Program-made: the position numbers and the translations under genes | NCBI GenBank assembly: GCA_031179215.1 | Contig: JAPSIA010000007.1 | Location: 1-47,129, forward strand | Length of the DNA: 47,129 nt | Direction: 5' to 3' | Source: Agrococcus sp. | Lineage (GTDB): Bacteria > Actinomycetota > Actinomycetes > Actinomycetales > Microbacteriaceae | Shown here: positions 10,113-41,815 of the stretch, in pieces | How the letters are laid out: each line of letters begins with the position of its first letter | Numbering within the stretch: position 1 is the first letter of the stretch | Notes under the pieces: generated by a model | Seen by the model: only the letters and a program-made list of their open reading frames with translations | Told to the model about the DNA's origin: nothing | The model's database searches: none

Positions 10113-10148
10113 GCCGGGTCGCTCGAACCGCCCGGCGGGCGCGGTAGC

Positions 10149-10691: not shown

Positions 10692-10724
10692 GGCGGGGCC
10701 GAGGCATCGCCTCGACCCCGCCTC
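10690..10724. terminator. Bidirectional terminator-like hairpin
   Basis: GAGGCGGGGcCGAGGC-ATC-GCCTCGaCCCCGCCTC, 15-bp stem with one mismatch between convergent genes. Confidence 0.7.
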
Positions 10725-10747
10725 GCCTCACGCGGCGACCCCGACGC

Positions 10748-23651: not shown

Positions 23652-25738
23652 GCGTGTTGCACCTCTCTGGTCAGGTTGGGGAAGTGGCAGGCGACATCGC
23701 GCGACGTCGACGTCGGCTCGAGCTCGGGATCATCCCGTTCGCAGCGCTTCCGACGCTCGTCATCGAGCAGTGACGCGAAGACGGGGCAGCGCGAGCGGAA
23801 GGCGCAGCCGGAGGGCCGATCGCTGGGCGACGGCATGTCACCGCGGAGCGTGATCGCCTGCCTCGACCGCTCGACCTTCGGGTCGGGGATCGGGATGGCC
23901 GACAGCAGCGCCTTGGTGTAGGGATGCGCGGGGTCGTCGAAGACCTCATCGCGCCCGCCGATCTCGACGATGCGTCCGAGGTACATGACGGCGATGCGAT
24001 CGGAGATGTGCGCGACGACGGCCAGGTCGTGCGCGACGAAGAGGTAGCCGAGCCCACGCTCAGCCTGCAGTCGCGCAAGCAGGTTGACGACGCCCGCCTG
24101 CACCGATACATCGAGCGCGGACACCGGCTCGTCGAGCACGACGACATCCGGGTCGGTGGCGAGGGCGCGGGCGATGCCGATGCGCTGACGCTGCCCGCCG
24201 GAGAACTCGTGCGGGTAGCGCTCGGCCATCTCCTCGCTCAAGCCCACGTCGCGCAGCAGCTGTGCGACTCGCTCGGCGCGCGCGCGTCGCGGTACGCCCG
24301 CGAGCGCGAGTGCCTCTCCGATCACGGCTGCGACCGACATGCGAGGGTCGAGCGACGAGAACGGGTCCTGGAAGACCATCTGGATCTGCCTGCGCATCGA
24401 CGTGAGCTCACGGCCCCGCGCGGCCGCCAGATCACGACCGCGCACGTGCACCGTGCCGCCCGTCATCTCCTGCAGCCTGGTGACCGCGCGAGCCGCTGAG
24501 GACTTGCCGCAGCCCGACTCTCCGACGAGGCCCAGCGTCTCGCCCGCGCGGATCGTGAAGGAGACGCCGTCGACCGCCACGACGCTCCTGCGGCGTCCGG
24601 CGCGATCCTTGGCCTCGTACCGCTGCACGAGGTCGACGACAGCGAGCAGGACCTCGGAGCCGCGGCCGCCGCCGGCGGGGACCTCCGGCACGGTCGGCAG
24701 GTCGGCCCGCACGATCTCCGGATGGCGCGCGAAGTGGCACGCCGCGGCGTGCGTCGCGAGCGGTCGCGCCTCGTCCTCGGCGCCGACGTCGAGCAGCGCC
24801 GGCTCGACCGAGGTGCAGACGTCCTGCGCGAAGGCGCAGCGGGCAGCGAAGGGGCAGGAGCGGCCGGTGAGCGTCGCCGGACTCGGCGGCGCACCCGGGA
24901 TCGGGCGCAAGGGCGCGTCGCGCTGATCGATGCGAGGGATCGAGGCCAGCAGGCCTCGGGTGTAGGGCATCCTCGAGCGCTCGAACACCTCATCGACGTC
25001 GCCGCGCTCGACGACCCTCCCGCCGTACATCACGAGCACCCGGTCGGCGTGTCCGGCGATGACGCCCATGTCGTGGGTCACGAGGATGAGCGCCGCGTTG
25101 ACATGCTTGCGCGCCTGGTCGAGCGCCTCGAGCACCTGGGCCTGGACGGTGACGTCGAGGGCCGTCGTCGGCTCATCTGCGATGATGACGTCGGGTCGGT
25201 TCGCCATCGCGATGGCGATCACCGCGCGCTGCCGCATGCCGCCGGAGAACTCGTGCGGGTACTGGTCGATGCGCTGCTGGGCGTCCGGGATGCCGACGAC
25301 CTCGAGCAGCGCGACCGCTTCGGCTCGGGCGTGGGCCTTCGACAGGGGGCGGTGGATGCGGATCGCCTCGATGAGCTGCGCGCCGACGGTCAGCACCGGG
25401 TTGAGCGAGCTCATCGGATCCTGGAACACCATCGACAGACGAGCGCCGCGGAGCCTCGACATCGCCCCATCCGAGAGCCCGACGAGCTCTTGCCCCTCGA
25501 AGGTGATCGACCCCTCGATCAGCGTGCGATCGGGGAGGAGCCCCATGATGGCGTTCGACGTCACGGACTTGCCGGATCCGGACTCGCCGACGATGCCGAG
25601 CACCTCCCCTCTCCGCACGTCGAACGAGACGCCGCGCACGGCGTGCACGGCGCCGAAGCGCACGTGCAGATCACGCACCTCGAGCAGCGGCGAGCTCATC
25701 GTCGATGCGGCGTCGAGCGTTGGAGCGAGCGTCGTCAT
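23648..25738 (-). CDS. Dipeptide/oligopeptide ABC transporter, fused double ATPase (DppD-DppF-like)
   Basis: Two Walker A ([16 protein letters not shown]), two signature ([16 protein letters not shown]) and two Walker B regions. Confidence 0.95.
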
Positions 25739-26646
25739 GCGGACCTCCTGGTCGACTGCCGGGGATCGAGGGCGTGGCGCACGCCGTCGCCGATGAACGA
25801 GGCGCACAGTGCGATGAGCACGATGAACAGACCTGGGAAGTAGAAGAGCCACGGCCGCGTCATGACCGCGCTCTGCGAGGTCGAGACGAGGAGCCCGAGC
25901 GAGGTGTCGGGCGCCTGCACGCCGAAGCCGAGGTAGGAGAGGGCCGTCTCCGACAGGATCGCCGTCGCTGTCAGGACCGTCACGGCGACGGTGATGGTGC
26001 CCATCGCGTTCGGGATGAGGTGTCGAACGATGATGCCGAGGTGGCTCACTCCGAGCCCGCGGGCGGCCAGCACGTACTCCGAGGTCGCGAGCGACATGAC
26101 CGTGGCTCGTACGACGCGCGCGACGATGGGCCATGCCAGGAAGGCCAGCACCGCGGCGATCGTCGTCCAGCTCGTCTCTGTGCCCATCGAGAGGTACGCG
26201 AGCACCGCCGCGACGGCGATCGAGGGGAAGACGAGGATCACGTCGATCACTCGCATGATCGCGGCGTCGGCGAGGCCGCGGAAGTAGCCCGCGATCGCCC
26301 CCACGATGGATCCGACCACGGTCGCAGCGATCGCGACGACGAGCGCGATGAGCACCGAGCGCTGCGTGCCGCGCATGATCTGCGCCATGGTGTCGTAGCC
26401 CGTGCTGTCCGTGCCGAACGGGTGCGCGAGCGAGGGTGGCTGCGAGATGTCGTCGGTGTAGACGTCGTACCGGTAGATCCACAGCTGCGGCCCGACGAAC
26501 GCGAACAGCAGCACGAGCACGAAGACCACGAGCGCGATCAGGCTCGTAGGGTTGCGCAGGAAGCGGCGCATCGCCGGGAAGCGGCGACGGCTCGACGGTC
26601 GTGGTACGGCGATGGCGTCGCGCGAGGCTGGTGGTGATAGGAGCAT
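25735..26646 (-). CDS. ABC transporter permease (DppC-like)
   Basis: 'HPFGTDSTGYDTMAQIMRGTQRSVLIALVVA', 'YVLAARGLGVSHLGIIVRHLIPNAMG'. Confidence 0.95.
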   Translation of the reverse strand: MLLSPPASRDAIAVPRPSSRRRFPAMRRFLRNPTSLIALVVFVLVLLFAFVGPQLWIYRYDVYTDDISQPPSLAHPFGTDSTGYDTMAQIMRGTQRSVLIALVVAIAATVVGSIVGAIAGYFRGLADAAIMRVIDVILVFPSIAVAAVLAYLSMGTETSWTTIAAVLAFLAWPIVARVVRATVMSLATSEYVLAARGLGVSHLGIIVRHLIPNAMGTITVAVTVLTATAILSETALSYLGFGVQAPDTSLGLLVSTSQSAVMTRPWLFYFPGLFIVLIALCASFIGDGVRHALDPRQSTRRSA

Positions 26647-26657
26647 GCGCCTTCCCT

Positions 26658-27620
26658 TCAGGCCGTCCGGATGCGAGGATCGAGCACGCCGTAGACGAGG
26701 TCGGCGAGCAGGTTGAGCACGATCGTCGCCGTGGCGAAGACGAGCAGCCACGCCATGACGACGTGGACGTCGAGGTTGCGGATGCCGTTGAGCAGCAGGT
26801 CGCCCATGCCGCGCCATTGGAAGATGCTCTCCGACACGATCGCGCCCCCGACGAGTGCGCTGAAGTCGAGCGCGACGATCGTGACGAAGGGCATGAGCGC
26901 GTTGCGCAGTCCGTGGCGGACGACGGCGCGGCCCTTGGTCAGGCCCTTCGCTCGCGCGAGGCGCATGTAGTCGGCGCTCAGCACCTCGATCATCGAGGAG
27001 CGCACGTAGCGACTCCAAGAGGCGAACTGGTTGATCACGAGCACGATCGTCGGCAGCGCGAGGAAGCCGACGAGCTCGAGCCCCGCCGCGCCGCTGGAGG
27101 TGCCGTCGCCCACGGTGTAGAACACCGTCGTCCCGGCGGCCTCGTTGAACTCGATCGCCGCATACTTCAAGAGCACACCGACCCAGAACACCGGCAGTGC
27201 CAGCGCGATGAAGACGAGCGTGCTCACGACGTTGTCGATGGCGCCGCTCTGGCGCATCGCGCTGATCACGCCGACCACGATCGCGACGACCGCGGCGATC
27301 AGCACGGCGAGCACGATGAGCCGGAAGCTCACGAGCATGCGGGCGCCGAGCTCCGCACCGATGTCGACGTTCGCGACCGATGCGCCGAAGTCGCCTCGGA
27401 AGATGCCGGTCAGCCAGTTCCAGTAGCGCACGAGCACCGGTTGATCGAGCCCGAGCTGCCTCTCGATCGACGCGATGGCCTCGGGCGGCGGAGGAGGATC
27501 CATCGATCGGTACCGAGACATGGGGTCGCCGGAGAACGCCACCATCATGAACATCACGAACGACGCGATGAACAGCATCGGCGCAGCGATCGCGAACCGT
27601 CGAATCGCAAACCTGAGCAT
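26658..27620 (-). CDS. ABC transporter permease (DppB-like)
   Basis: 'RQLGLDQPVLVRYWNWLTGIFRGDFGAS', 'YMRLARAKGLTKGRAVVRHGLRNALMPFVTIVALDFSALVGGAIVSESIF'. Confidence 0.95.
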   Translation of the reverse strand: MLRFAIRRFAIAAPMLFIASFVMFMMVAFSGDPMSRYRSMDPPPPPEAIASIERQLGLDQPVLVRYWNWLTGIFRGDFGASVANVDIGAELGARMLVSFRLIVLAVLIAAVVAIVVGVISAMRQSGAIDNVVSTLVFIALALPVFWVGVLLKYAAIEFNEAAGTTVFYTVGDGTSSGAAGLELVGFLALPTIVLVINQFASWSRYVRSSMIEVLSADYMRLARAKGLTKGRAVVRHGLRNALMPFVTIVALDFSALVGGAIVSESIFQWRGMGDLLLNGIRNLDVHVVMAWLLVFATATIVLNLLADLVYGVLDPRIRTA

Positions 27621-27645
27621 GCTTCCCCTTCCCCGTGCTCCGACA

Positions 27646-27675
27646 GGGGCGCGGGAGCCGTGACTCCCGCGCCCC
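27646..27675 (-). repeat. Intercistronic stem-loop GGGGCGCGGGAG-ccgtga-CTCCCGCGCCCC between SBP and permease genes
   Basis: 12-bp perfect stem, 6-nt loop. Confidence 0.75.
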
Positions 27676-27682
27676 GCTCGCT

Positions 27683-29407
27683 TCACTCGCCGGTGAAGCC
27701 CCATTCGTGGATGTTGTAGGTCGGACCGCTGATCGTGGGGTTGTCTCGGATGTTGCCGAGCGAATCCACGTAGGCGAGCAAGCTGGGCTTCTGGTACAGC
27801 GGCATCAGGAGGAGATCCTCGACCACGAGCGCATCCGCCTCGTTGATGAGAGCGATCGTCTCCTCGCTCGACGTGGCCTGCAGGGCCTCGTCGACGAGCT
27901 CGTCGACCTGGGGATTGGAGTAGTACGGGTTGTAGCCCGTGCCGGTGGTGTAGCGCTTGAAGGCGTTCGAGGCGATGAAGGGCGAACCGGTGTAGCCGAC
28001 GAGCACGAGGTCGTAGCCGTACGGCTCGTTGTTCGATGTCGTGTCGCCGAGGGAGTCGGTCGTCTCGAGCGCCAACGAGATGCCGAGCGGCTGCAGCGCG
28101 GTCTGGATCACCTGCATCGACGACTCGCGCACTGCGTTCCCCACCGAGTACACCGCGCGCAGCGCGGGCACGGCCTCGCCCTCGGGCGTGTGCAGCGCGC
28201 CGTCCTGCAGCGTGTAGCCCGCCTCTTCGAGGATCGCCAACGCCGCATCGGCATCGCCCTGACCGTAGCCGAGCTCCTCGACCTTGCTCTCGTAGCCCTC
28301 CTGCTGCTGCATGATCATCACCGAGCCGACGGGCGTGACCGTCTCGTCGAACTGGCCGACCGTGCGATCGATGACGCTCTGCGTGTCGATCGCCGTCGCG
28401 ATCGCGCGTCGGAGCGCTGGATCCGAGAGGAACGAGTTCGAGTGGTTGAACATGAGCGACTCCATCACCATCGACTGGTTCATCTGATGGCTCACTCCCA
28501 TCCCCGCCATGTCTCGGACCTGCTGCAGGAGATCGATCTGCGGCTGCGGGTACATCACGTCGATCTCGCCGTTCTGCATGGCGATCGGCGTCTGCTGCGT
28601 ATCGGTGATCATCACGAAGTTGATCCGCTCGAGCGGCGGCTCGTCTCCGTACCAGTTGGGGTTCCGCTCGAGGGTGACCGAGACGTCCTGCTGGTAGTCG
28701 GAGATGATGTAGGGGCCGCCCGAGAACTCCGGCACCGTGTTCACGAAGTAGTCGCTGAAGGTCTCGTACAGGTCTCCGTGCTCGGCAGCGATGTGCGCCG
28801 GCAGCAGTCGCTGGAACGGGCGCTGCCACTCCGAGAACGTGCTCTCGTACGTGACGGTGACGGTGCGACCGTCCTCGGACTGCTCGATCGACGTGACCTT
28901 GTCGAGCCCGTCCGAGTCGTGCGTCGCGCAGTCAGGGCAGTCCCGCGTGTTGAGCACCCGCCACTGGTAGATGAAGTCGTCGCCGGTGATCGGCACGCCG
29001 TCGGACCACACGGCATCCTCGTTGATCACGTACTGGACGACCGTCGGGTCCTGGCTGACGACCTCGGCGCTCTCGAGCAGATCGGTGTTCATCTCGATCG
29101 TCGAGGCGTCCGGCTGGATGACGAACGCCGCCGGGTACAGGGCGGAGGTCACCCACACCGTCTCCGAGATGTCGCCCGCCGCCGAGAGCGTGTTCCAGTT
29201 GGGGATCGTCTTCTCGATCGCCATCGTCACCTCTCCCCCGGCCTGCACCTCCGCGGTGTTGACGGCGTTGAGGTCGCCCGTGACTTGACCGGGCGCGGCC
29301 GAGGGCGAGTCGCCGCCCTCGCTCGCGTTGCCCGCGCCACCGGCACAGGCTGAGACGAAGAGCGTGGCGGCGGCAAGCACCGCGACGCTCGTGAACCGAT
29401 TGCGCAT
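27683..29407 (-). CDS. ABC transporter family 5 (DppA/OppA-like) substrate-binding lipoprotein
   Basis: Lipobox 'LFVSACAGG', 'VWSDGVPITGDDFIYQWR', 'GYNPYYSNPQVDELVDEALQATSSEE'. Confidence 0.95.
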   Translation of the reverse strand: MRNRFTSVAVLAAATLFVSACAGGAGNASEGGDSPSAAPGQVTGDLNAVNTAEVQAGGEVTMAIEKTIPNWNTLSAAGDISETVWVTSALYPAAFVIQPDASTIEMNTDLLESAEVVSQDPTVVQYVINEDAVWSDGVPITGDDFIYQWRVLNTRDCPDCATHDSDGLDKVTSIEQSEDGRTVTVTYESTFSEWQRPFQRLLPAHIAAEHGDLYETFSDYFVNTVPEFSGGPYIISDYQQDVSVTLERNPNWYGDEPPLERINFVMITDTQQTPIAMQNGEIDVMYPQPQIDLLQQVRDMAGMGVSHQMNQSMVMESLMFNHSNSFLSDPALRRAIATAIDTQSVIDRTVGQFDETVTPVGSVMIMQQQEGYESKVEELGYGQGDADAALAILEEAGYTLQDGALHTPEGEAVPALRAVYSVGNAVRESSMQVIQTALQPLGISLALETTDSLGDTTSNNEPYGYDLVLVGYTGSPFIASNAFKRYTTGTGYNPYYSNPQVDELVDEALQATSSEETIALINEADALVVEDLLLMPLYQKPSLLAYVDSLGNIRDNPTISGPTYNIHEWGFTGE

Positions 29408-29432: not shown

Positions 29433-30551
29433 TCAGACGGCGAACGGGTTCCGGCGGAACACGTTGGGGCTCAGCTCGTCGATCGACGAGCAACCGAGGT
29501 GACCGAGGGTCATCCACAGCTCCTGCTTGAGGATCTCGATGACGCGCGCGACGCCGTCCTCCCCGTCAGCCGCGAGGCCCAGTGCGGTCAGCCGTCCGAT
29601 GGCGACCGCATCCGCGCCGAGGGCGACGGCCGCGGCGATGTCGCTGCCGCGCCGGATGCCGGAGTCGATGATGATGGGCATCTCGGGCCCGACCGCGGCG
29701 CGCACCTCGGGGAGCACCTCGATCGTCGAGAGCGTCCTGTCGATCGTGCGACCGCCGTAGTTGGAGACGTAGATCCCGACAGCTCCCGCGTCCTGCGCGG
29801 CCAGTGCATCGGCGGCGCTGTGGACGCCCTTCACGATCACGGGCAGCGGGGCGCGCGCGATCACGCGAGCGGCGTCGACCCAGGTGTAGCGAGGACGCGT
29901 GAACTCGATGAGCTCCTGCAAGCCCGCCGGATCGGACCCTCCTGCCCCGAAGTTGACGTTGTCGCCCGTGGAGCGCGAGGCGAAGCGGTTCTCGATGAGG
30001 CGCTCGCGCCATTGCCGGATGGGCGAGTAGGTGGCGACGATGTGCGTGTAGCCGGCGGCCTTCGCTCGGTGCATCATCTCGAGCACGAGCTCCTCGTCAC
30101 CGACGAGCGTCATCTGATAGAGGTGCGCGGCGTTCGACGCGGCGGCGATGTCCTCGAGCCGGTAGGAGGCCGCGACGGGCACCATCTGCTGCACCCCCGT
30201 CCGCTCCGCGGCGCGGCCGACCGCGAGGTGGCCGTCGACGTGGAACGTGGCCTCTTGCCCGAACGGCGCGGTGAACAGCGGCAGCGAGAGGTCGTAGCCG
30301 AGCACGGTCGTCGAGGTGTCGGGGTTGCGCACCCCCGCGAAGAGCGGCACCTCCCACAGCAGCTCGTCGAACTTCGCGCTGTTGCGCTCGACCGTCGTCT
30401 CGGCTCCGGTGCCCGTCCAGAGGTAGTCCCACGCCGACTCGGAGAGCACATGGCGCGCGGCCTTGGTGATGCCGCGGATCGTGGTGAACCGCTCGCTCGA
30501 TCCGAAGCGGTCGTCGAAGATGGCGCGAGCCTCGGCCTGCTGCGTGGTCAT
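29433..30551 (-). CDS. FMN-dependent alpha-hydroxy-acid oxidizing protein
   Basis: 'LPVIVKGVHSAADALAAQDAGAVGIYVSNYGGRTIDRTLSTIEVLPEV', 'IIIDSGIRRGSDIAAAVALGADAVAIGR'. Confidence 0.92.
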   Translation of the reverse strand: MTTQQAEARAIFDDRFGSSERFTTIRGITKAARHVLSESAWDYLWTGTGAETTVERNSAKFDELLWEVPLFAGVRNPDTSTTVLGYDLSLPLFTAPFGQEATFHVDGHLAVGRAAERTGVQQMVPVAASYRLEDIAAASNAAHLYQMTLVGDEELVLEMMHRAKAAGYTHIVATYSPIRQWRERLIENRFASRSTGDNVNFGAGGSDPAGLQELIEFTRPRYTWVDAARVIARAPLPVIVKGVHSAADALAAQDAGAVGIYVSNYGGRTIDRTLSTIEVLPEVRAAVGPEMPIIIDSGIRRGSDIAAAVALGADAVAIGRLTALGLAADGEDGVARVIEILKQELWMTLGHLGCSSIDELSPNVFRRNPFAV

Positions 30552-30559
30552 GGCGTGCC

Positions 30560-31153
30560 TCACGCGGTCTCGAGGACGCCGCGCAGGGCGCCGACGACCG
30601 CATCGGTGTCGCGGATGCGGCCGATCTGGGGGAAGACCTCGCGCACGGCGAACTCGTGGAGCTGGGTCGTCGCCGAGGCCATCGCGTCCTCGACGAACAC
30701 GAGCTCGTAGCCGTGGTCGTAGGCCGCGCGAGCCGTGCCCTCCACGCCGAAGTTCGTCGAGATGCCGCACATGACGACGGTGTCGATGCCGTGCCGGCGC
30801 AGCTGCAGGTCGAGGTCGGAGCCGTAGAACGCGTTCCAGGAGCGCTTGATGATGACGGGCTCGGTGGGAAGCGGCTGCATCTCCTCCACGAGCCGGTCCC
30901 ACCCATCCCAGCGGCTGGGCGCGTGGCGCTCCACGTCGACTCGCTTCACGAGCGTCAGCGAGTCCGACTCGTCCGGCAGGAAGCTCGTGCGCACGTAGAT
31001 CACGAGGCTCCCGCCTGCACGAGCCGCGTCCACGAGCTCGGTCACGCGCGAGATGACCGTCTCCGCGTCGTACGGCTCGGCTGCGTGGCGCCGCACGGCT
31101 CCTTGCATGTCGATGATGACGAGGGCGGTATTGGTGGGTTCGAGGAGTGTCAT
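30560..31153 (-). CDS. Isochorismatase-like cysteine hydrolase
   Basis: 'NTALVIIDMQGAV', 'IIKRSWNAFYGSDLDLQLRRHGIDTVVMCGISTNFGVEGTARAAYDHGYELVFVEDAMAS'. Confidence 0.93.
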   Translation of the reverse strand: MTLLEPTNTALVIIDMQGAVRRHAAEPYDAETVISRVTELVDAARAGGSLVIYVRTSFLPDESDSLTLVKRVDVERHAPSRWDGWDRLVEEMQPLPTEPVIIKRSWNAFYGSDLDLQLRRHGIDTVVMCGISTNFGVEGTARAAYDHGYELVFVEDAMASATTQLHEFAVREVFPQIGRIRDTDAVVGALRGVLETA

Positions 31154-31188
31154 GGTGTCCTTGTCGATCGGTCGGATGGGGTGGTGGC

Positions 31189-32403
31189 TCACGAGCCGGT
31201 GATGCGGCGCACGAGGCGCACGAGGGTGTCGGGGGCGCCGATCCCGGACGCCTTGGTGATGACCGCGAGGTTCGCGAATGGCCCGCCGCCCAGCCGGAGC
31301 ACGGGGCATAGCGGCTCGAGCTCGTTGCCGGGACGCAGGTCGATCGCGTCGAGCGCACGGATGGTCTTTCCGGAGCTCACGCCGCCGCTCACGATCACCC
31401 CGAGCGCCGGGTGTCGTCCTCGGGTGCTGACGTCGAGGATCCTGCGAACGGCCGCGGCGATGTCGTCGGCGACGACGAGTGGGTCGTCGTCCTGGCGCTC
31501 CGTCGCCTGCACGACGATGACCCGATGCTCTGCCACCGTGTCGAGCAGGAACGCGTCCGTCTCGCGGAGGACGGCCGTGGGGGTCGTCACGCGCGCCGCG
31601 GGGCCGTAGACGTCGGCCACGCGAGCGAGCTGCTGCCGGTCGAGCGGCGCCGACCCCGGCGCCGCGACGACGACGAAGCCGTCGGCGTCGAGTGCCGGGT
31701 GGAAGCGCAGCCAGCCGCCGCTCGATACCGTGACGACCTCGTGGTCGTGCTCGAGCTGCTGGACGACGGCGGCCGTGACCTCGAGATGGCCCTCGTTGGC
31801 CGCGTCGAACACGAGGATGCGGTGCCCCGCCGCGATGGCGCGGCGAGCGTCGTCCACTGCAGCTTGGCGACCGCTCGTGAGCGAGTCGATCGAGATGCGC
31901 GTGCGGGCAGCACCGAGCTCGAGGTGCGCTGCGACGGGGAGCGCCTCGACGCCCGATCCGCGGTGGTGCACGCTCTGGACGCCCTCGACGCAGATGCGGC
32001 CGGCACTCGGGTACGCCGTCACGACCGCCACGAGCGGCTCGCGCGCTCCCGCTCCGGCGAGCACGCCGCGCAGCACCTCGGCGGGAGCGCCCCGGAAGGC
32101 TGAGTCGATGCGCTGCTCGACGCGCAGGCATCCCCGTTCGCGGAGCCAGATCGCCCACCGCTCGGCGAGCATCGCGGTGTCCTCGAGCCGGTCCTGGGCT
32201 TGGATGTCGACGACGAGTGCGTGGAGTCCGGAGGCGGGAGTCGTTCGCGGGTCGTCCACGACCTGGACGCGCAGCCCGCGCTGCTGGAGCCGGCCTGCGA
32301 CCGTGACGGCCGCCTGGAGGTCCTCGGTGACGACGCCCAGCGCGATCGATCCGGACGCGCGGCGACCACCGAGGGTCCCGATCGTTGCACGTCCTGCCAT
32401 CAC
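31189..32403 (-). CDS. Four-carbon acid sugar kinase family (DUF1537), divergent
   Basis: 'IDSAFRGAPAEVLRGVLAGAG', 'VTAYPSAGRICVEGVQSV', C-terminal 'VIVSGGVSSGKTIRALDAIDL..GGGPFANLAVITKASGIG'. Confidence 0.8.
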   Translation of the reverse strand: MMAGRATIGTLGGRRASGSIALGVVTEDLQAAVTVAGRLQQRGLRVQVVDDPRTTPASGLHALVVDIQAQDRLEDTAMLAERWAIWLRERGCLRVEQRIDSAFRGAPAEVLRGVLAGAGAREPLVAVVTAYPSAGRICVEGVQSVHHRGSGVEALPVAAHLELGAARTRISIDSLTSGRQAAVDDARRAIAAGHRILVFDAANEGHLEVTAAVVQQLEHDHEVVTVSSGGWLRFHPALDADGFVVVAAPGSAPLDRQQLARVADVYGPAARVTTPTAVLRETDAFLLDTVAEHRVIVVQATERQDDDPLVVADDIAAAVRRILDVSTRGRHPALGVIVSGGVSSGKTIRALDAIDLRPGNELEPLCPVLRLGGGPFANLAVITKASGIGAPDTLVRLVRRITGS

Positions 32404-32644: not shown

Positions 32645-33883
32645 ATGGGTGCGATCCGCCTCGAGGCTGCGCACCGCAAGCTCCTGTTCGAGCTGGCCGA
32701 CGCGATCGGAGCGTCGCTCGAAGTGGCAGTCGAGATCACCGATGCTCGCCTCCGATCCCTCGCTCGCAGTGAGCTCGTCCCGGTCGAAGGACAGGCTCGA
32801 GGCCTGCGACCGGACCTATCCCCCCGCGTGCGCGTCCCATCGGGCCATCGGGAACCGATCCATGTGCCCGCCGTGGCGGCGATCGGCCTGCCCGGCTTCT
32901 GGGTCGTGCCCATCTACGGCGTCGAGCGCCTGCGCGTGCTGCTCTGGATCCTCGACGGCGACGCCGATCGGGCTGCGGTGGAGTTCGCATCGACCGCCGC
33001 GAGCGCGACCGTGCGGGGTCTCGACGCCGCTGGCGCGTTCGGCGCGCCTTCGCGGGGCAAGGACCTCGGCGCTGCGGGCTTCAGCGATCATCTCGCCGAG
33101 GTCGAGGGGGCGCTCGCGGACGCCACCGCTGACGGCGAGTTCCAGTACGACTCCGTCAGCGTGGCGCTGGCGATCGTGGTCGAACCCGCGAGCGCTCATT
33201 TCGCCACGGCAGACGATCTCGCCGCCACGCTGTGGCGCACGGCGCAGCGCGGAGCCGGAACGTTGCCCCACCCGCGGACGCTCGTCGCTCAGCACGACAG
33301 CGAAGCGCTCATCGTGCTCGCCCCGTTCCCCCAGGACCCGCCCTCGAGCGCCCTGGAACGCACCGTCGCCGTGGTCCAGGACCTGCTCTACCGCAGCCAG
33401 GATGTGGGACTCTACGGCCGCTGGGTCCTGGGCAGCAGCGCCGCCATCAGGCATCCCGAAGGGCCGGCGCGAGCGATCTGGCAGGCGCGCAACGCAGCCA
33501 AGACCGGTCTCCGACTGGGGCTGAGCGGTCAGGTCGTCGAGTGGCGACTCGCCGAGCGCTACCACGGCCTCCCGCAGCTGCCACAGCGGTTCATCGATGA
33601 CCACTTCCTCACCGCCGAGCTGGTGGGCTTTTTCGAGGATCCGGAGCATGGCGATCTCACGGCGACGCTGGAGAGCTTCCTCGAGCACGCCGGCAACGTG
33701 CAGGCCGTCGCAGCCGAGCGGTTCGTCCACCGGACCAACGTCTATCACCGGCTGCGGCGCATCGAGTCCGCGCTCGGCGTCGATCTCGGCAACGGGCACG
33801 ATCGGCTCGCCCTGCACATGGCACTGATCGCGTGGCGGATGAGGGGCACAGCGGCGACCGAGCGCGACCAGCTTGTTCGCTGA
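32645..33883 (+). CDS. PucR/CdaR-type transcriptional regulator
   Basis: C-terminal 'FFEDPEHGDLTATLESFLEHAGNVQAVAAERFVHRTNVYHRLRRIESALGVDLGNGHDRLALHMAL' PucR-type HTH; ATG at 32645 after GGGAGGTG. Confidence 0.88.
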   Translation: MGAIRLEAAHRKLLFELADAIGASLEVAVEITDARLRSLARSELVPVEGQARGLRPDLSPRVRVPSGHREPIHVPAVAAIGLPGFWVVPIYGVERLRVLLWILDGDADRAAVEFASTAASATVRGLDAAGAFGAPSRGKDLGAAGFSDHLAEVEGALADATADGEFQYDSVSVALAIVVEPASAHFATADDLAATLWRTAQRGAGTLPHPRTLVAQHDSEALIVLAPFPQDPPSSALERTVAVVQDLLYRSQDVGLYGRWVLGSSAAIRHPEGPARAIWQARNAAKTGLRLGLSGQVVEWRLAERYHGLPQLPQRFIDDHFLTAELVGFFEDPEHGDLTATLESFLEHAGNVQAVAAERFVHRTNVYHRLRRIESALGVDLGNGHDRLALHMALIAWRMRGTAATERDQLVR

Positions 33884-34247: not shown

Positions 34248-35276
34248 TCAGACGCCGAAGCTGATGAGCGTCTTCGTGCTCGCTCGCGAGTCCGCCGCTC
34301 GCGAGAACGCATCCGCGGCCTCCGAGACCGGGAAGACGTCCGTGACGACAGCGTCGAGCGCAGGCGTGGCGGCGAGGATGGCGATCGCTTCATCGAGCTC
34401 GACGTCGAACCGCTGCGACCCGTGCAGCGACAGCTCCTTGGTAATGACATCGGACATCGGTATGGGCAGCTCCCCCTTCGGCAGCATGCCCAGCTGAACG
34501 ACGGCTCCCCCGCGACGTGCGGCGTCGAGGGCGGTGCGGAGCGACGGCACGGCGCCGGCCGCCTCGATGACGATGTCGAACCGCTCCTGCGGCACGGGAT
34601 CCGTGCCGACGCGGAGCGCGACGTGCGCGCCGACCGCCGTCGCGACCTCGAGCGGGCGCGCGTGCAGGTCGCACACGGTGACGCGGCGAGCGCCGCGATG
34701 CAGCAGCGCCGCGACGACGAGGCAGCCGATGGGCCCCGCGCCCGAGACGAGCACATCGGAGCCTTCGAGCAGGGGGCGCGCCCGGTCGACGCCGTGCAGC
34801 GCGACCGCGAGCGGCTCGGCGAGCGCTGCGCGGCGCAGCGGCAGCCCGGCCGGGAGCGGACGCAGCTGCGCAGCGGTCACCTGGAGCCGCTCGACGAGCC
34901 CTCCTTGCGTGTGGGGCGACGTCGACGCGCTGCCGAGGTAGGTGCCCCCTGCGGCGAGGTGCAGCCCCGTGCCGTCGGCCCCGCCGGGCAGCGGCGTCGG
35001 CGTTGCCGGGTGGATCGCGACTCGAGTGCCCACCGGGGGCGCATCCGCGACCTGCGAGCCGACAGCCGCGACCGTGCCGACCACCTCGTGCCCGAGTACG
35101 AGCGGCTCTCGCACGACGAACGCGCCGTTCGCGCCGTGCTGGTGGTAGTGGAGGTCGGAGCCGCAGATGCCGCCGTAGGCGATGTCCACCAGCACGCCAT
35201 CGGGCGCGAGCGACGGCGGCTCGAGCTCGGCGACGCGCAGGTCTCCTGCGCCGTGGACCATGACTGCCCGCATCAT
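34248..35276 (-). CDS. Zinc-dependent alcohol/polyol dehydrogenase (L-idonate 5-dehydrogenase-like)
   Basis: 'GGICGSDLHYHQHGANGAFVVREPLVLGHEVVGTV', 'EPLAVALHGVDRA', 'VSGAGPIGCLVVAALLHRGA'; in-frame ATG at 35276. Confidence 0.88.
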   Translation of the reverse strand: MMRAVMVHGAGDLRVAELEPPSLAPDGVLVDIAYGGICGSDLHYHQHGANGAFVVREPLVLGHEVVGTVAAVGSQVADAPPVGTRVAIHPATPTPLPGGADGTGLHLAAGGTYLGSASTSPHTQGGLVERLQVTAAQLRPLPAGLPLRRAALAEPLAVALHGVDRARPLLEGSDVLVSGAGPIGCLVVAALLHRGARRVTVCDLHARPLEVATAVGAHVALRVGTDPVPQERFDIVIEAAGAVPSLRTALDAARRGGAVVQLGMLPKGELPIPMSDVITKELSLHGSQRFDVELDEAIAILAATPALDAVVTDVFPVSEAADAFSRAADSRASTKTLISFGV

Positions 35277-35292: not shown

Positions 35293-36027
35293 TCAGCGAC
35301 TGAGGTAGCCGCCGTCGACGGGCACGACGGTGCCCTGCATGTAGCGCGCGGCGGGCGAGACCAGGAACAGCACGGCACCCGCGACGTCCTCGGGACGTCC
35401 CCAGCGCCCGGCAGGGATGCGCTCGAGGATCTGCCGGTTGCGAGTCTCGTCAGCGATCAGTGCAGCGTTCAGATCGGTGGCGATGAACCCGGGAGCCACG
35501 GCGTTGACCGTCACGCCACGTCCGGCCCACTCGTTCGCGACGGACTTCGTGAACTGCGCCACCGCGCCCTTCGACGCCCCGTACGCGGACGCCGTGAAGC
35601 CACCGAAGAACGAGAGCATCGACGCGATGTTCACGATGGCGCCGTCGCCGCGCTCGAGCATCGGCCGCCCGAAGACCTGCGTGAGCTCGACGAGGCGGGC
35701 GACGTTGACCTGCATGACGCGATCGAAGTCGGCCAACGGGAAGTCCTCGAAGGGGTGGCGGATGTTGATGCCGGCGTTGTTGATGAGGATGTCGACGCGT
35801 TGTTCGGCGGCGATGCGCGACGCCGCCGCCCTGGTCGCCTCGCCGTCCGCGAGGTCGACGGCGACGGCGCGGAAGCTGCCCTCGGGACCGCCCTCGCTCG
35901 AGCGCTGCAGGCCGATGACGTCGGCCCCGTTCTCGAGCAGCGCCTCCGCGATGGCACGGCCGATGCCACGCGTGGCGCCCGTGACGACCGCGGTCCTGCC
36001 GCGGAGGTCGGTCGTGATGCCGGTCAT
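35293..36027 (-). CDS. SDR family oxidoreductase (KduD-like)
   Basis: 'TAVVTGATRGIGRAIAEAL', 'NNAGINIRHPFEDFPLADFDRVMQVN', 'SAYGASKGAVAQFTKSVANEWAGRGVTVNAVAPGFIATDLN'. Confidence 0.92.
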   Translation of the reverse strand: MTGITTDLRGRTAVVTGATRGIGRAIAEALLENGADVIGLQRSSEGGPEGSFRAVAVDLADGEATRAAASRIAAEQRVDILINNAGINIRHPFEDFPLADFDRVMQVNVARLVELTQVFGRPMLERGDGAIVNIASMLSFFGGFTASAYGASKGAVAQFTKSVANEWAGRGVTVNAVAPGFIATDLNAALIADETRNRQILERIPAGRWGRPEDVAGAVLFLVSPAARYMQGTVVPVDGGYLSR

Positions 36028-36085: not shown

Positions 36086-37507
36086 TCAGCCGATCTTGAA
36101 GCCGAGCGCCGTCGCGGTCGAGTAGATCGCGACCAAGCCGATCGCGACCACCGAGATCGTCAGCAGCACGTTGAAGAGCTTCCCGCCACGAACGCGCGGG
36201 TCGGTCTCCGTCTTGCGGAGGAAGATGACCGCGGTGACGACGACGAGCAGGAAGATGCCGCTCGCGATGCCGCCGATCTGCACCATCCACACGGGGTTCT
36301 GCATGAACAGGAACTCGAGCCCCCACACGATGGGGTAGATCACCGTCAGCACCTTCAGCCACGTGAGCCGCTGCTTGCGGTTGTTCCAATCGACGAGGCC
36401 GAAGTTCGCCATGTAGTTCGTGAACAGGCGCGCGTACGACGGGATGGTGGCGTAGTAGGTGGATCCGAGCACGAGGATCGCGCCGATGAGGAACACCGTG
36501 CCGGACCACTCGCCCACGGCATCCGTGTACATCGAGCTGAGCGTGACGAGCATCTCGTTGCCTGCAGGCACGAGCCCCTGGGGGTGCAGCACCGCCGCGC
36601 CCATCGTGAAGAAGGCGACCGTCGCGAAGGTGTAGACGACCCACGAGACGGCGGCGTCCTTGTACATGACCTTGATCCAGCCATTGGCGCGGTCGACCCA
36701 CGCCTCGGAGCCGTCGTTCGGCCCCGCGAATCGCGCGTAGCCCTTCTCGAGGCACCAGTAGTTGTAGATGAGGATCTCGTCGGACCCGACGCCGGAGATG
36801 CCGAACATCGCCACGGCGGCGCCGATGGCGCCGGCCGGGATCAGGAACGAGAAGCCGCTCGCGACGTCGGAGACGGTGTAGGCGAACGGCGTCCACAGGA
36901 GGCCGAACGCGACCGCCACGGTGAAGATCGTGAAGCCCGCGACCATGAGGGTCCCGATCGACTCGATGCGGGCGTAGTTGTTCTTGTAGAGCACCGCGAT
37001 CGTGACGGCCGTCAGGACCGCGGTCCAGATGACGAGCGACGGGAAGCCCATCGGGTCACCGACGATCGGCCACAGCATCGACAGCGCGAGCACGACCCCG
37101 CCCACGATGCCGCCGTACTGCATCTGCTTGCCGATGAAGACGACGCCCCAGAGGATGTTGGTCCAGCTCCACCTGCCGCCGATGAGCGGCGGCACCTTGT
37201 TGAGTCCCGTCATGGCGGGCTGGCCGGTGGAGATGGTCCACCGCGCGAACTCCATCTGCACCGCGACCTTCACGAAGGTCGAGATGACGACCATCCAGAG
37301 GATGGCGAAGCCCGCCTCGGCGCCGAGGGCCGTCGTCGCGATGAGCTCGCCGGAGCCGACGATCGCCGCGGAGAGCAGCAGTCCGGGGCCGAAGTAGCGC
37401 ATCGATGCGCGCCACCCCCTCGGAGGCTCGACGACATCGGCCGGATCGAGCGTGTACTCGTCCTTGATCTCCAGCGGTCCCTTGGGAACAGCAGCGGTGG
37501 ACGTCAT
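36086..37507 (-). CDS. Nramp-like transporter lacking canonical metal-binding motifs
   Basis: 'RYFGPGLLLSAAIVGSGELIATTALGAEAGFAILWMVVISTFVKVAVQMEFARWTISTGQPA' aligns with Nramp TM1-2, but DPGN and MPH motifs are absent. Confidence 0.82.
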   Translation of the reverse strand: MTSTAAVPKGPLEIKDEYTLDPADVVEPPRGWRASMRYFGPGLLLSAAIVGSGELIATTALGAEAGFAILWMVVISTFVKVAVQMEFARWTISTGQPAMTGLNKVPPLIGGRWSWTNILWGVVFIGKQMQYGGIVGGVVLALSMLWPIVGDPMGFPSLVIWTAVLTAVTIAVLYKNNYARIESIGTLMVAGFTIFTVAVAFGLLWTPFAYTVSDVASGFSFLIPAGAIGAAVAMFGISGVGSDEILIYNYWCLEKGYARFAGPNDGSEAWVDRANGWIKVMYKDAAVSWVVYTFATVAFFTMGAAVLHPQGLVPAGNEMLVTLSSMYTDAVGEWSGTVFLIGAILVLGSTYYATIPSYARLFTNYMANFGLVDWNNRKQRLTWLKVLTVIYPIVWGLEFLFMQNPVWMVQIGGIASGIFLLVVVTAVIFLRKTETDPRVRGGKLFNVLLTISVVAIGLVAIYSTATALGFKIG

Positions 37508-37546: not shown

Positions 37547-38317
37547 TCAGCCGATGCGGAGTCCGCCATTGACGTTGTAGGTGGCGCCGGTGATGTAGCC
37601 GGCGTCGGGACCGCTGAGGAAGACGAGCAGCGCCGCGACCTCGTCGACGGTGCCGACCCGCCCGACGGGCATGCGAGCGAGGAAGGCGGGGAGCCGGTCC
37701 TCCGTCAAGGGGCCGCCCATGATGTCGGTGTCGATCGTGGCCGGCGCGATCGCGTTGGCCGTCACGCCGTGCGGCGCGAGCTCGCGCGCGACCGACCGCG
37801 TCATCCCCTCGATCGCGGCCTTGGAAGCGGCGTAGGAGGCCTTGGAGTAGTTGCCGCCGCCGTCCTGCGCGGCGGTCGACGAGATCGACACGATGCGGCC
37901 GATCCCGCGATCGCGCATGCCGGCCGCCATCCGCTGCGTGACGAGGAAGGTTCCGACCGTGTTGATCTCGAGCACGCGCCGGAAGCGCTCGCCCGAGAGC
38001 TCGAAGAAGGGCGTCGGGTCGGAGATGCCCGCGGCGTTGATCAGGGCGACGACGGGCGGGAGCTCTTGCTCGACGACGCCGATCGCCGCGGCGACGCTCG
38101 ACTCGTCGCTCACGTCGACTCCGACCGCGATCGCGGATGCGCCCGCGTCTCGAACGAGGGCTGCCGTCTCCTCCGCCGCGGCGATATCGAGGTCGAGCAC
38201 GGCGACGGTCCAGCCCTCTGCGGCGAAGCGCAGCGCTGCCGCTCGGCCGATCCCGCGCGCGGATCCAGCACCGGTCACGACCGCCGTGCGGGCCTCGGGG
38301 AACATCGTCGTCGCCAT
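37547..38317 (-). CDS. SDR family NAD(P)-dependent oxidoreductase
   Basis: 'TAVVTGAGSARGIGRAAALRFAAEGW', 'NAAGISDPTPFFEL', 'ASYAASKAAIEGMTRSVARELAPHGVTANAIAPATIDTDI'. Confidence 0.92.
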   Translation of the reverse strand: MATTMFPEARTAVVTGAGSARGIGRAAALRFAAEGWTVAVLDLDIAAAEETAALVRDAGASAIAVGVDVSDESSVAAAIGVVEQELPPVVALINAAGISDPTPFFELSGERFRRVLEINTVGTFLVTQRMAAGMRDRGIGRIVSISSTAAQDGGGNYSKASYAASKAAIEGMTRSVARELAPHGVTANAIAPATIDTDIMGGPLTEDRLPAFLARMPVGRVGTVDEVAALLVFLSGPDAGYITGATYNVNGGLRIG

Positions 38318-38383: not shown

Positions 38384-38397
38384 TATTTGATCAAATA
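38384..38397. promoter_or_regulatory. Perfect 14-bp palindrome TATTTGATCAAATA in a divergent promoter region; candidate operator
   Basis: AT-rich palindrome in otherwise GC-rich DNA between divergent catabolic operons. Confidence 0.65.
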
Positions 38398-38455: not shown

Positions 38456-39784
38456 ATGAAGCGCCTCGACGGTGCGATCGACTTCGCGAAGCTGCTGCTG
38501 GCGGGCGGCTTGGCCACGAACCCGGTGACCTCGGCACCGACGATCGACGACCTCCGCGCGGTCGCCAAGCGCCGCTTGCCTCGAGTCGCGTTCGACATCG
38601 TCGACGGTGCGGCAGACGCGGAGGCCACCGCGGCCTCGAACCTCGCCGACCTCCGCGAGGTGCTCTTCGAGCCGCGCTCGCTCGTCGACGTCTCCAGGCC
38701 CTCGACGCGCACGGACGCCGTCGGCATCCCCCTCGAGCAGCCATTCGTCCTCGGCCCGTGCGGCCTCATGCGCATGCTCGGGCACGGCGGCGAGAAGGCT
38801 GCTGTGCGAGCGGCCGGCGACGCGGGAGTGCCTTACACGATCAGCTCCGCGGCCAACTGGTCGATGGAGGAGATCGCAGCCGAGGCGACCGGGCCCCTGT
38901 GGTTCCAGCTGTACATGTACAAGGGCGAGGGCATCGTGCGCGACCTCGTGACGCGTGCGAAGCGGATCGGCGCCGAGCTGCTGATGGTCACGGTCGACCT
39001 GCCCGTGAACGGCAAGCGCCCCCGCGACCACCGCAACGGCATGACGATCCCGCCCAAGGTGACGCGCTCGAACTTCCTCTCCGCTGCCCGGCACCCGAGC
39101 TGGCTGCTCTCCCTCGTCAGCGGTCCGCCCATCGGCTTCCGCAACCTCGCCGACATCGACTTGGGCGGCTCGCGGCTCTCGCACCAGGAGTACGTCAACA
39201 CGAAGCTCATCAACCCGAGCCTGACGTGGGACGACCTCGAGCTCGTTCGCCAGCTGTGGGACGGCCCGCTCGTCATCAAGGGCATCACGACGCCCGCCGA
39301 CGCCCGGCTCGCTCGGCGCGCGGGCGCTGACGGCGTCATCGTCTCGAACCACGGCGGCCGCCAGCTCGACTCGACGCCGTCGTCGATCGCGGCGCTGCCG
39401 CGCGTCGTCGACGCGGTCGCTGGCGACATGTCGGTCGGGTTCGACGGCGGCATCCGTGGCGGCGGCGATGTCGTGAAGGCGCTCGCGCTCGGAGCCGACT
39501 ACACGCTCCTCGGTCGCGCGTGGGCGTACGGGCTGGCGGCCGGCGGCGGCGCGGGCGTGCGTCGAGCGATCGACATCGTCGACAGCGAGGTGCGCCAGAC
39601 GCTCAGCCTCCTGGGCTGCCCCGACGTGCGCGACCTCGACCGCTCGTTCGTCACCTATCCCGCGCGCTGGCATGGCCAGGGGCGCGTGGTCACCGAGCCC
39701 AGGGTGTCTGTCGACGCCGTGATCGAGGCGTCGCAGCGCGGCGCCGGCGCCCCGCTCGACGCCGAGGGCCAGGAGTCGCGATGA
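38456..39784 (+). CDS. FMN-dependent alpha-hydroxy-acid oxidizing protein
   Basis: 'LPRVAFDIVDGAADAEATAASNLADLREVLFEPRSLVDVSR', 'GADGVIVSNHGGRQLDSTPSSIAALPRVVDAV', 'SVGFDGGIRGGGDVVKALALGADYTLLGRAWAYGLAAGG'. Confidence 0.95.
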   Translation: MKRLDGAIDFAKLLLAGGLATNPVTSAPTIDDLRAVAKRRLPRVAFDIVDGAADAEATAASNLADLREVLFEPRSLVDVSRPSTRTDAVGIPLEQPFVLGPCGLMRMLGHGGEKAAVRAAGDAGVPYTISSAANWSMEEIAAEATGPLWFQLYMYKGEGIVRDLVTRAKRIGAELLMVTVDLPVNGKRPRDHRNGMTIPPKVTRSNFLSAARHPSWLLSLVSGPPIGFRNLADIDLGGSRLSHQEYVNTKLINPSLTWDDLELVRQLWDGPLVIKGITTPADARLARRAGADGVIVSNHGGRQLDSTPSSIAALPRVVDAVAGDMSVGFDGGIRGGGDVVKALALGADYTLLGRAWAYGLAAGGGAGVRRAIDIVDSEVRQTLSLLGCPDVRDLDRSFVTYPARWHGQGRVVTEPRVSVDAVIEASQRGAGAPLDAEGQESR

Positions 39785-40782
39785 GCTACCGCGTCGCGAT
39801 CACCGCCGACGTCTTTACCGCTGACGGCACCGAGGTCTTCCCCGGCAGCGGCCTCATCGGCGCGGACGCACCGAACACCGAGTTCGTCGTGCTCGACGAG
39901 CTCCTGCCCGAGGTGACCGGTGCGCAGCTCGCGGGCTTCGACGCGCTCGTGCTCGCCGGCAGCGCGGCGGTGACCGAGCGCACGCTCGAGGACGCACCGC
40001 AGCTGCGGCACGTCGCACGATTCGGGTCCGGCTACGACGCGGTCGACGTGGACGCATGCACCCGGCACGGCGTGCAGGTCACGAACACGCCTGAGGCCGT
40101 CCGCGAGCCCATGGCGCTGGCCGGCTTGACGATGCTGCTCGCCGTCTCGCACAACCTCGTGCAGAAGGATGCGATCACTCGCGCAGGGCGATGGGGCGAG
40201 CGGTCGGCGCTGCAGGGGCCCGGCGTCACGGGTTCCACGGTCGGCATCATCGGCTTCGGGGGCATCGGCAAGGCCACTGCGGAGCTCGTCCGCGGCGTGG
40301 GTGCCGAGGTGCTGGTGCAGAACCGCTCTGACCGGAGCGCCGAGGCGATCGCCATCGGCGCCCGGCAGGTCTCGCTCGACGAGCTGCTCGCGGCATCCGA
40401 CTACGTGATGATCACCGTCGCATACACGGCCGACACCCATCACCTCATCGGTGCCGACCAGCTGGCGCGCATGCCGCGGCACGCCCGCCTCATCAACATG
40501 GCTCGAGGCAAGGTCGTCGACGAGGCGGCGCTCATCGAGGCACTGCGCTCGGGCACCATCAGCGGGGCCGGCCTCGACGTCTTCGCGAACGAGCCGGTCG
40601 AGCCGGACAACCCCCTGCTGACCATGCAGAATGTCACCGTGACGCCGCACGCCCTCTGCTGGACCGACAGCTTCGCCCGCCGCGTCGGCCACAGCGTCCT
40701 CACTGCGATCGCCGATGTCGCCGCGGGCAGACGCCCCCAGCACCTCATCAATCCGGCCGCCGTCGGCGCTGGGATCCGATGA
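39781..40782 (+). CDS. D-isomer-specific 2-hydroxyacid dehydrogenase family
   Basis: 'VARFGSGYDAVDVDACTRHGVQVTNTPEAVREPMA', 'TVGIIGFGGIGKATAELVRGVGAEV', 'LINMARGKVVDEAALIEALRSGTISGAGLDVFANEP'. Confidence 0.93.
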   Translation: MSYRVAITADVFTADGTEVFPGSGLIGADAPNTEFVVLDELLPEVTGAQLAGFDALVLAGSAAVTERTLEDAPQLRHVARFGSGYDAVDVDACTRHGVQVTNTPEAVREPMALAGLTMLLAVSHNLVQKDAITRAGRWGERSALQGPGVTGSTVGIIGFGGIGKATAELVRGVGAEVLVQNRSDRSAEAIAIGARQVSLDELLAASDYVMITVAYTADTHHLIGADQLARMPRHARLINMARGKVVDEAALIEALRSGTISGAGLDVFANEPVEPDNPLLTMQNVTVTPHALCWTDSFARRVGHSVLTAIADVAAGRRPQHLINPAAVGAGIR

Positions 40783-41501
40783 CGCTGATCCGGCACGAGT
40801 CGCTCCGCGAGATCGTCGCCGAGCGGCTTCGCGCCGACATCATCGCCGGCAACCTGCCGTCAGGCTCACCGCTCGGGCTCGACGCGCTCGCGGAGCGCTA
40901 CGGCGTGTCGTTCACCCCCGTCCGCGAGGCGCTCTCGAGCCTCGAGCCGACCGGTTTCGTCGTGCGAGAGCCGCGCAAGGGCTATCGAGTAGCGCCTGCC
41001 CTCACGGCGCGTCAGCTGCTCGACGTGCTCGACGCGCGGCAGGCGATCGAGTCGCGCGCGGCGCTGCGGGCGGCGGCGCGCGTCACCGCCAAGCGGCTCG
41101 CCGAGCTGCGAGCGAACGTCCTCGAGCAGGAGGCGCGCCTCGCCGAGCACCGGGCCGCGTCGACCGAGGCTGAGCGCACCGCGGCGCTGCGCGGCTACTT
41201 CGTCGCCGACGCCGCGTTCCACGACCTCGTGATCGACAGCTCGCAGAACCCCGAGCTCGTGCGGCTCGCCGCGACGCTCTCGGGCCACTGGCACCGCGCC
41301 CGCGACACGCAGGAGCACGGCCTCATCGACGGCGAGGACGCGATGCGGGAGCACCGCGAGATCGTCGCCGCACTCTCGGCGCATGATCCGGCTGCTGCCG
41401 AGCACGCCATGTCGCAGCACATCGAGCGCGTCGTCGAGCTCGTGCGGCGGCGCGACGAGGCCACAGGAACGATTCCCCCTTCCAAGAGGAGCAGCTCATG
41501 A
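40779..41501 (+). CDS. GntR family regulator (FadR/FCD subfamily)
   Basis: 'LREIVAERLRADIIAGNLPSGSPLGLDALAERYGVSFTPVREALSSLEPTGFVVREPRKGYRV'. Confidence 0.92.
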   Translation: MTLIRHESLREIVAERLRADIIAGNLPSGSPLGLDALAERYGVSFTPVREALSSLEPTGFVVREPRKGYRVAPALTARQLLDVLDARQAIESRAALRAAARVTAKRLAELRANVLEQEARLAEHRAASTEAERTAALRGYFVADAAFHDLVIDSSQNPELVRLAATLSGHWHRARDTQEHGLIDGEDAMREHREIVAALSAHDPAAAEHAMSQHIERVVELVRRRDEATGTIPPSKRSSS

Positions 41502-41815
41502 CCCAGCCCGTCGTCGTCACGGCGATCTTCTACCCCGCCGAGGGCGCGCGCGAGCGCGTGCTCGAGGCGCTCGCGCGCGCGATCCCGCGCGTGCACGAGG
41601 AGGCGGGTTGCGAGCTGTACTCGATCCAGGAGGCCGGCGACGGCCGCATCGTCATGATCGAGAAGTGGACGACTGCCGCCCTCCTGGACTCCCACGGCGC
41701 GGGCGAGCCGGTGCGCGACCTGAACGCTTCCCTCGAGGGCTTGCTCACGCGTCCGGTCGACGTCGAGCGCCTCGAGCCGATCCCGATGGGCGATCCCGCG
41801 AAGGGCGCGCTGTAG
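41498..41815 (+). CDS. Antibiotic biosynthesis monooxygenase (ABM) family small protein
   Basis: 105 aa; 'AIFYPAEGARERVLEALARAIPRVHEEAGCELYSIQEAGDGRIVMIEKWTTAALLDSHGAGEPVRDLNASLEGLL'. Confidence 0.85.
   Translation: MTQPVVVTAIFYPAEGARERVLEALARAIPRVHEEAGCELYSIQEAGDGRIVMIEKWTTAALLDSHGAGEPVRDLNASLEGLLTRPVDVERLEPIPMGDPAKGAL

Follow-up and report, generated by a model that had tools for sequence, protein, structure and literature searches.

What would a member of the Nramp family carry once the residues that hold its metal have gone and its gene stands among dehydrogenases? The question is raised by a gene at positions 36086-37507 of the window, by which we mean the whole 47,129-nucleotide stretch of Agrococcus sp. 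contig JAPSIA010000007.1 analyzed here. A sequence-only reading had described the product as an Nramp-fold transporter that has lost its metal-binding motifs, lies inside an organic-acid catabolic operon and may move an organic or sugar acid rather than a divalent metal. The observation at this position is confirmed, with the addition that the gene is read from the minus strand. The TM1 and TM6 segments quoted in that reading, FGPGLLLSAAIVGSGELIATTALGAEAG and FGISGVGSDEILIYNY, both match the translation exactly, and an AAGGAG ribosome-binding site lies directly upstream of the gene. The plus-strand frame over the same interval is also open, and was set aside as merely the antisense of the Nramp-like gene. 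A simple gene caller favors the antisense frame in several high-GC homologous loci.

The operon and its neighbors

The Nramp-like gene is the second in a minus-strand operon in which the successive gaps from SDR to Nramp-like gene, SDR and ADH are 39, 58 and 16 bp. Pfam and NCBIfam matches bear out the neighborhood as it had been described: an SDR, the Nramp-like gene, a second SDR and an IdnD-like ADH, opposite genes for hydroxy-acid enzymes. The features referred to below are the following.

29433-30551, minus strand: second FMN-dependent dehydrogenase (PF01070, 1.1e-94; gene model)
30560-31192, minus strand: isochorismatase-family hydrolase, downstream neighbor (PF00857, 8.4e-41)
31189-32403, minus strand: four-carbon acid sugar kinase family protein (DUF1537; SBD_N + NBD_C; PF07005, PF17042)
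32645-33883, plus strand: PucR-type regulator, separating the DUF1537 genes from the operon (PF13556, 1.1e-17)
34248-35276, minus strand: zinc ADH, L-idonate 5-dehydrogenase-like, 342 aa (NF007375, 218.5 bits, below the cut-off of 469; PF00107, PF08240)
35293-36027, minus strand: SDR, KduD / gluconate 5-dehydrogenase-like, 244 aa (TIGR01832, 256.6 bits, below the cut-off of 338.85)
36086-37507, minus strand: VGSGE-clade Nramp-related transporter gene (473-aa ORF; NF037982, 104.5 bits; alignment; best AlphaFold/Foldseek matches to DraNramp)
36770-36793, minus strand: TM6 codons G239-L246 (GVGSDEIL), unwound segment without MPH (translation, alignments)
37343-37360, minus strand: TM1 codons V50-L55 (VGSGEL), replacing DPGN (translation, sequence, alignments)
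37547-38317, minus strand: SDR dehydrogenase, first gene of the operon, 256 aa (PF13561, 1.5e-57; gene model; ATG with ribosome-binding site)
38384-38397, no strand: perfect palindrome of 14 bp, TATTTGATCAAATA, in the interval between the two divergent operons; candidate operator
38456-39784, plus strand: FMN-dependent 2-hydroxy-acid (LldD-like) dehydrogenase, divergent operon (PF01070, 8.7e-125; NF008398, 346 bits, cut-off 376)
39781-40782, plus strand: D-2-hydroxyacid / glyoxylate reductase-like dehydrogenase, divergent operon (PF02826; NF009714, 219.9 bits, below cut-off)
40779-41501, plus strand: GntR/FCD transcription regulator, divergent operon (PF07729, 2.5e-20; PF00392, 9e-17)
41498-41815, plus strand: ABM-domain protein, last gene of the divergent operon (PF03992, 1.3e-9)

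The palindrome occurs once in the window, where 0.02 copies are expected, and a search of the 2.56-Mb draft genome that tolerates up to two mismatches finds no other. The divergent FCD-GntR protein (40779-41501) is the likely regulator, and would act at the palindrome at 38384. Farther down the minus strand, an operon at 22515-29407 encoding an FAD oxidase (DAO) and an Opp-type ABC importer adjoins the isochorismatase, FMN dehydrogenase and DUF1537 genes and is another possible catabolic unit.

The window protein is Nramp-related

Membership of the Nramp family is indicated by the NCBIfam model NF037982 (Nramp_1), which scores 104.5 bits over residues 40-433 against a curated cut-off of 50. 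The Pfam search does not report PF01566 for the window protein itself, and reports it for 11 of 12 close homologues; no amino-acid permease (APC) family is matched by the window protein in Pfam or NCBIfam. Comparison of a profile of the window clade with canonical Nramp gives a probability of 98%. An AlphaFold model built on an alignment of 13 sequences is of moderate confidence (pLDDT 69, pTM 0.72), and its best Foldseek matches are the Nramp structures of D. radiodurans (E 1.9e-8, TM by target 0.71). Among the matches that come after these are a YcsG model, EleNRMT and the LAT/BasC amino-acid transporters, YcsG and LAT/BasC being within the top 16. The Nramp fold that had been read from the sequence is thus borne out by the NF037982 score and by a model whose top matches are DraNramp; the window protein is Nramp-related, with a predicted Nramp/LeuT fold.

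The canonical ligands are lost and two acids are kept

When the protein is aligned by MAFFT or hhalign with MntH proteins from relatives, the D-P-G-N of canonical MntH falls on G51-S52-G53-E54, and a helix-breaking GSG in TM1 stands where canonical Nramps carry DPG. Replacement of DPGN by VGSGE, as had been noted for the window protein, extends to all 12 homologues first found, while the canonical relatives alongside keep DPGN. These 12 were retrieved with peptide patterns lying outside the motif, so that its presence in 13/13 first sequences is independent of the search, as are the HMM matches in family, class and phylum genomes. The larger set of 41 was picked by the VGSGE motif, and its invariance there carries no weight by itself. 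The TM6 motif is likewise gone, as had been claimed, with no Met-Pro-His under either program: the clade reads GVG(A/S)DE, in a register that differs between MAFFT and hhalign, and neither places a Met there. In TM3, the proton-pathway acids D131 and E134 of DraNramp align with Q/S/G130 and an invariant G133, the Nramp glutamate position being Gly in 41/41 clade members. No homologue in the VGSGE clade keeps the canonical ligands. As judged by these alignments, the canonical Nramp ligands are lost.

Two acids stand in the broken helices: E54 of TM1, which is part of the set-defining motif, and E244 of TM6, which is kept in 40/41 members. The claim of a lost metal site therefore holds for the DPGN and MPH motifs but does not extend to an inability to bind metal, because two acids, E54 and E244, are conserved where the helices unwind. 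Some cation may still bind through them.

These acids bring in the first alternative, namely that the protein is still an importer of divalent cations, with a rebuilt site in which E54 and E244 are hard ligands, and that its place in catabolic operons serves to supply metal-dependent enzymes (such as altronate dehydratases, PdxA and Zn-ADH). The conservation of both residues in the TM1 and TM6 breaks speaks for such a site, and there are precedents: NRMTs move Mg2+ through an altered site (PMC8806188), and MumT (PMC5050338) and the B. subtilis protein YcsG/MntG (PMC10448178), both from metabolic operons, affect cellular Mn and are reported as Mn importers. In the window protein, however, the site Asp, Asn and Met are all gone, and Gly replaces the TM3 glutamate in the alignment. 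The comparison with EleNRMT, a Mg2+ transporter, is instructive in that it shares the Nramp fold and an altered site with the window protein, which differs from it in having Gly at the Asp position and Glu at the Asn position. Magnesium transport of the NRMT type was set aside, given that the NRMT site motif is DxxG-TxxA/T (PMC8806188) and that the window protein has GSGE, not DxxG, and so is missing the TM1 Asp.

A rare and patchy clade

The VGSGE clade has 41 non-redundant members in the present sample, from Actinomycetota, Alphaproteobacteria, Bacillota and Bacteroidota, with sampling outside Actinomycetota consisting of 12 GTDB loci and plasmids only. Among its carriers are Ammoniphilus, Skermanella, Roseomonas and Microscilla. 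By HMM search the clade is found in 9 of 400 genomes of the same family as the window's genome, in 7 of 395 of its class and in 8 of 397 of its phylum, its own genome being counted each time. The clade is rare and patchy, and this occurrence across phyla suggests horizontal spread.

In a 74-row tree, the DPGN, AIGPG (PxpT type), VGAGD and VGSGE motif types fall into separate groups. The DPGN rows lie on their own side of the tree (SH-aLRT 91) and the VGSGE rows form one clade, supported by an SH-aLRT of no more than 80; the tree has several long branches, on which the program gives a warning. Some carriers and more distant proteins are worth recording. Saccharopolyspora soli has two VGSGE Nramp genes in tandem (L010:8387-9784 and 10019-11416). 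Two Haladaptatus plasmids (L035, L036) hold archaeal LGSGE Nramp-like genes beside three UxaA-family genes and an MFS transporter. At L025:15328-16797, a second, distant Nramp-like protein (TM1 IGSGE) is encoded between a FadR regulator and LutABC lactate-utilization genes, near a DUF1537 kinase and PdxA.

Many VGSGE genes lie among acid-sugar and hydroxy-acid enzymes

Is the catabolic setting of the window gene peculiar to Agrococcus or a property of the clade? Stretches of ~20 kb were sampled around family members, around canonical MntH genes and at random places in family-member genomes. Markers were sought by six-frame tblastn with the neighbor enzymes, leaving out the loci that supplied reference proteins; these counts are independent of the gene caller, and the Pfam neighbor tally used a seeded gene caller. 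Acid-sugar and hydroxy-acid signature enzymes occur at 11/27 family loci versus 0/28 controls (Fisher 1e-4), and at least one marker of any kind, the IdnD-like ADH counted among them, at 16/27 versus 1/28 (Fisher 5e-6), p values that are too small because the loci share ancestry. FCD-GntR regulators occur at 9/27 family loci and at none of the 28 controls (canonical MntH and random). Grouping at 70% identity gives 15 clusters, and in 12 of them a hand count finds a catabolic partner at one or more loci. The related VGAGD group, in the same six-frame search, has signature enzymes at 0/11 loci and FCD-GntR at 0/11.

The Pfam tally gives a similar picture. Among 131 family neighbors there are 10 FCD, 8 SDR, 6 2-Hacid_dh, 6 ADH and 4 sugar-isomerase-like domains, and two each of ILVD_EDD, GD_AH (galactarate/altronate dehydratase), Ldh_2, MR_MLE, DUF1537 and HpcH; none of these families is in the top 25 of the 132 control neighbors. 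Some neighbors at the family loci are unrelated (argininosuccinate synthase-like, GNAT). Co-occurrence of VGSGE with sugar-acid and hydroxy-acid genes had been put forward as a test of the organic-acid idea, and both the marker counts (16/27 versus 1/28) and the Pfam tallies pass it. These counts show a family-wide link of the clade to sugar-acid and hydroxy-acid catabolism and, in two genomes, to urate catabolism.

Individual loci illustrate the range. Two Streptomyces plasmids carry a four-carbon acid-sugar cluster in the order DeoR, PdxA, DUF1537 kinase, AKR, HpcH aldolase, 2HADH and Nramp, with no second annotated transporter within either cluster. On a Rubrobacter plasmid the VGSGE gene is surrounded by UxaA, LarA, LutABC, DUF1537 and PdxA. 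In two Rubrobacteraceae-type genomes (L078, L079) it lies within a urate-degradation cluster, which at L079:3790-14143 runs from xanthine dehydrogenase subunits through Nramp and OHCU decarboxylase to uricase and HIU hydrolase. A xanthine/urate-type permease adjoins the VGSGE gene of L078, so the Nramp-like protein there need not be a urate importer. Urate as a common substrate was rejected, since the urate cluster is found in two genomes only, one of them with the adjacent purine permease.

The same neighborhoods bear on the metal-import alternative. The partners of the VGSGE genes include SDR, 2-HADH, FMN dehydrogenase and uricase, families not known to need a divalent metal. The window's genome encodes three metal-binding proteins of the ZnuA type, which belong to ABC import, and a full-length canonical Nramp match is also present in 10 of 23 genomes that carry a VGSGE gene, and a metal role would therefore often be redundant. 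If the Streptomyces proteins were metal importers, their clusters would be left with no other annotated transporter. We consider continued metal import unlikely.

A further alternative is that the gene is a passenger in these clusters, or exports a toxic pathway intermediate, and is not an uptake system. The tested markers are absent at 11/27 family loci, the purine permease adjoins the gene in L078, and an Opp-type ABC importer lies ~7-13 kb away in the window, each of which leaves room for such a role. It is hard to reconcile with a gene that is co-directional in its operon, lying 39 and 58 bp from the two SDR genes, that encodes the sole annotated transporter in the two Streptomyces clusters, and whose association with catabolic genes recurs in several distinct subclades. 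We regard this as the least credible of the alternatives, and highly improbable.

A model for a probable organic-acid transporter

We return to uptake of an organic acid. Judged from protein family and gene context, the window protein is probably an Nramp-related secondary transporter with a substrate of the organic-acid type. The statement in the sequence-only reading that it may carry an organic or sugar acid is partly supported: context enrichment favors it at the level of the family, but it does not hold uniformly, given the urate cluster in two genomes and the loci with no metabolic partner. In our model, the LeuT-fold transporter would import, rather than export, a small organic acid. 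For the window operon, the neighboring dehydrogenases make a hydroxy or sugar acid the most likely substrate, perhaps an aldonate. We do not name the pathway or substrate because the SDR, ADH and hydroxy-acid dehydrogenase scores fall below their curated cut-offs. Once inside, the acid would be oxidized by the flanking SDRs and IdnD-like ADH together with the divergent hydroxy-acid dehydrogenases.

How such a substrate could be held is suggested by the APC/SLC7 transporters. In AdiC and LAT1, TM1 is broken by a GSG whose backbone contacts the carboxylate of the substrate (PMC5877779; compare GkApcT, PMC5803215). AdiC, LAT1 and BasC share with the window protein the LeuT fold and a GSG at the corresponding TM1 break, which makes the comparison one of working principle; the window protein is no member of that family and has a Glu after its GSG. 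By analogy with the AdiC/LAT transporters, the backbone amides of the GSG turn might hold the acid group of the substrate, a proposal that we offer tentatively and think somewhat doubtful.

The conserved E54 and E244 would serve coupling, to H+ or another cation. They also count against an organic-acid reading, as one would not expect an anion site to have acids in its substrate region, except in a protonated or cation-bound state. It is conceivable that the protein carries a metal–organic acid complex, or that acid uptake is coupled to a cation bound by E54/E244. The GSG turn and the two acids do coexist, Mn and 5-oxoproline phenotypes have both been reported for the PxpT/YcsG relatives, and citrate-metal symporters are an example of a metal being transported together with an organic acid. 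The window protein lacks the proton-pathway residues of canonical Nramps, however, and we think this combined mode very unlikely.

The wider version of the organic-acid model is that the whole VGSGE branch consists of organic-acid transporters (for sugar acids, hydroxy acids and possibly urate) that bind through the GSG turn, with canonical metal transport being one specialization of an older organic-solute fold. We find it plausible, although we would stop just short of calling it probable.

Relation to known transporters

Two points should be separated in placing these proteins: (i) loss of DPGN/MPH among Nramp-related proteins and (ii) the association of the VGSGE clade with catabolic genes. 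The first is already known. A 2026 preprint (PMC12873925) describes Nramp-related groups without DPGN/MPH and calls all but the NRMT-like and MntG groups entirely uncharacterized; such groups (PF01566 / NF037982) have in common with the window protein the family model, the LeuT/Nramp fold and the absence of DPGN/MPH. The second, linkage to sugar-acid, hydroxy-acid and urate catabolism, is the new part: the literature searched, whose coverage leaves out most subscription journals, holds no earlier report of this linkage or of an Nramp protein together with sugar-acid catabolism. Canonical Nramp/MntH, represented by DraNramp, is the best structural match, and the window protein differs from it in being without DPGN, MPH and the TM3 acids.

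Permeases of the IdnT / GntP type for gluconate and idonate sit beside idnD-idnO. The window gene resembles them in its position, next to an IdnD-like ADH and a gluconate-dehydrogenase-like SDR, and differs in belonging to an unrelated transporter family and in that the window dehydrogenases score below curated cut-offs.

Precedent for an organic substrate in the Nramp family comes from PxpT of C. glutamicum, an NRAMP-family protein required for growth on 5-oxoproline (PMC13274462). Like YcsG/MntG, it is Nramp-related, has no DPGN and is encoded beside catabolic enzymes, and PxpT has a divergent GntR regulator. The PxpT type differs from the window protein in its TM1 sequence, which is SAIGPG in the pxpA-linked genes of genus mates, and groups apart, in a clade whose profile does not match that of the VGSGE clade significantly. 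In the genus mates, at L136-L143, PxpT-type Nramp genes with this SAIGPG motif adjoin pxpA; the PxpA family has no match in the window's own draft genome, which is 88% complete.

VGSGE-clade genes carry the automatic annotation 'Nramp family divalent metal transporter'. If the clade carries organic acids, (i) this name is wrong for the whole clade, (ii) several acid-sugar clusters that are now without a transporter gain one and (iii) a tractable system is at hand for the switch of one fold between organic anions and metal ions. The question also bears on the conflict over PxpT, YcsG and MumT, proteins of the wider type for which import of 5-oxoproline and import of Mn2+ have both been claimed (PMC13274462, PMC10448178, PMC5050338). 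For the homologous PxpT and YcsG, the functions reported are 5-oxoproline uptake in one case and Mn2+ import in the other (PMC13274462, PMC10448178).
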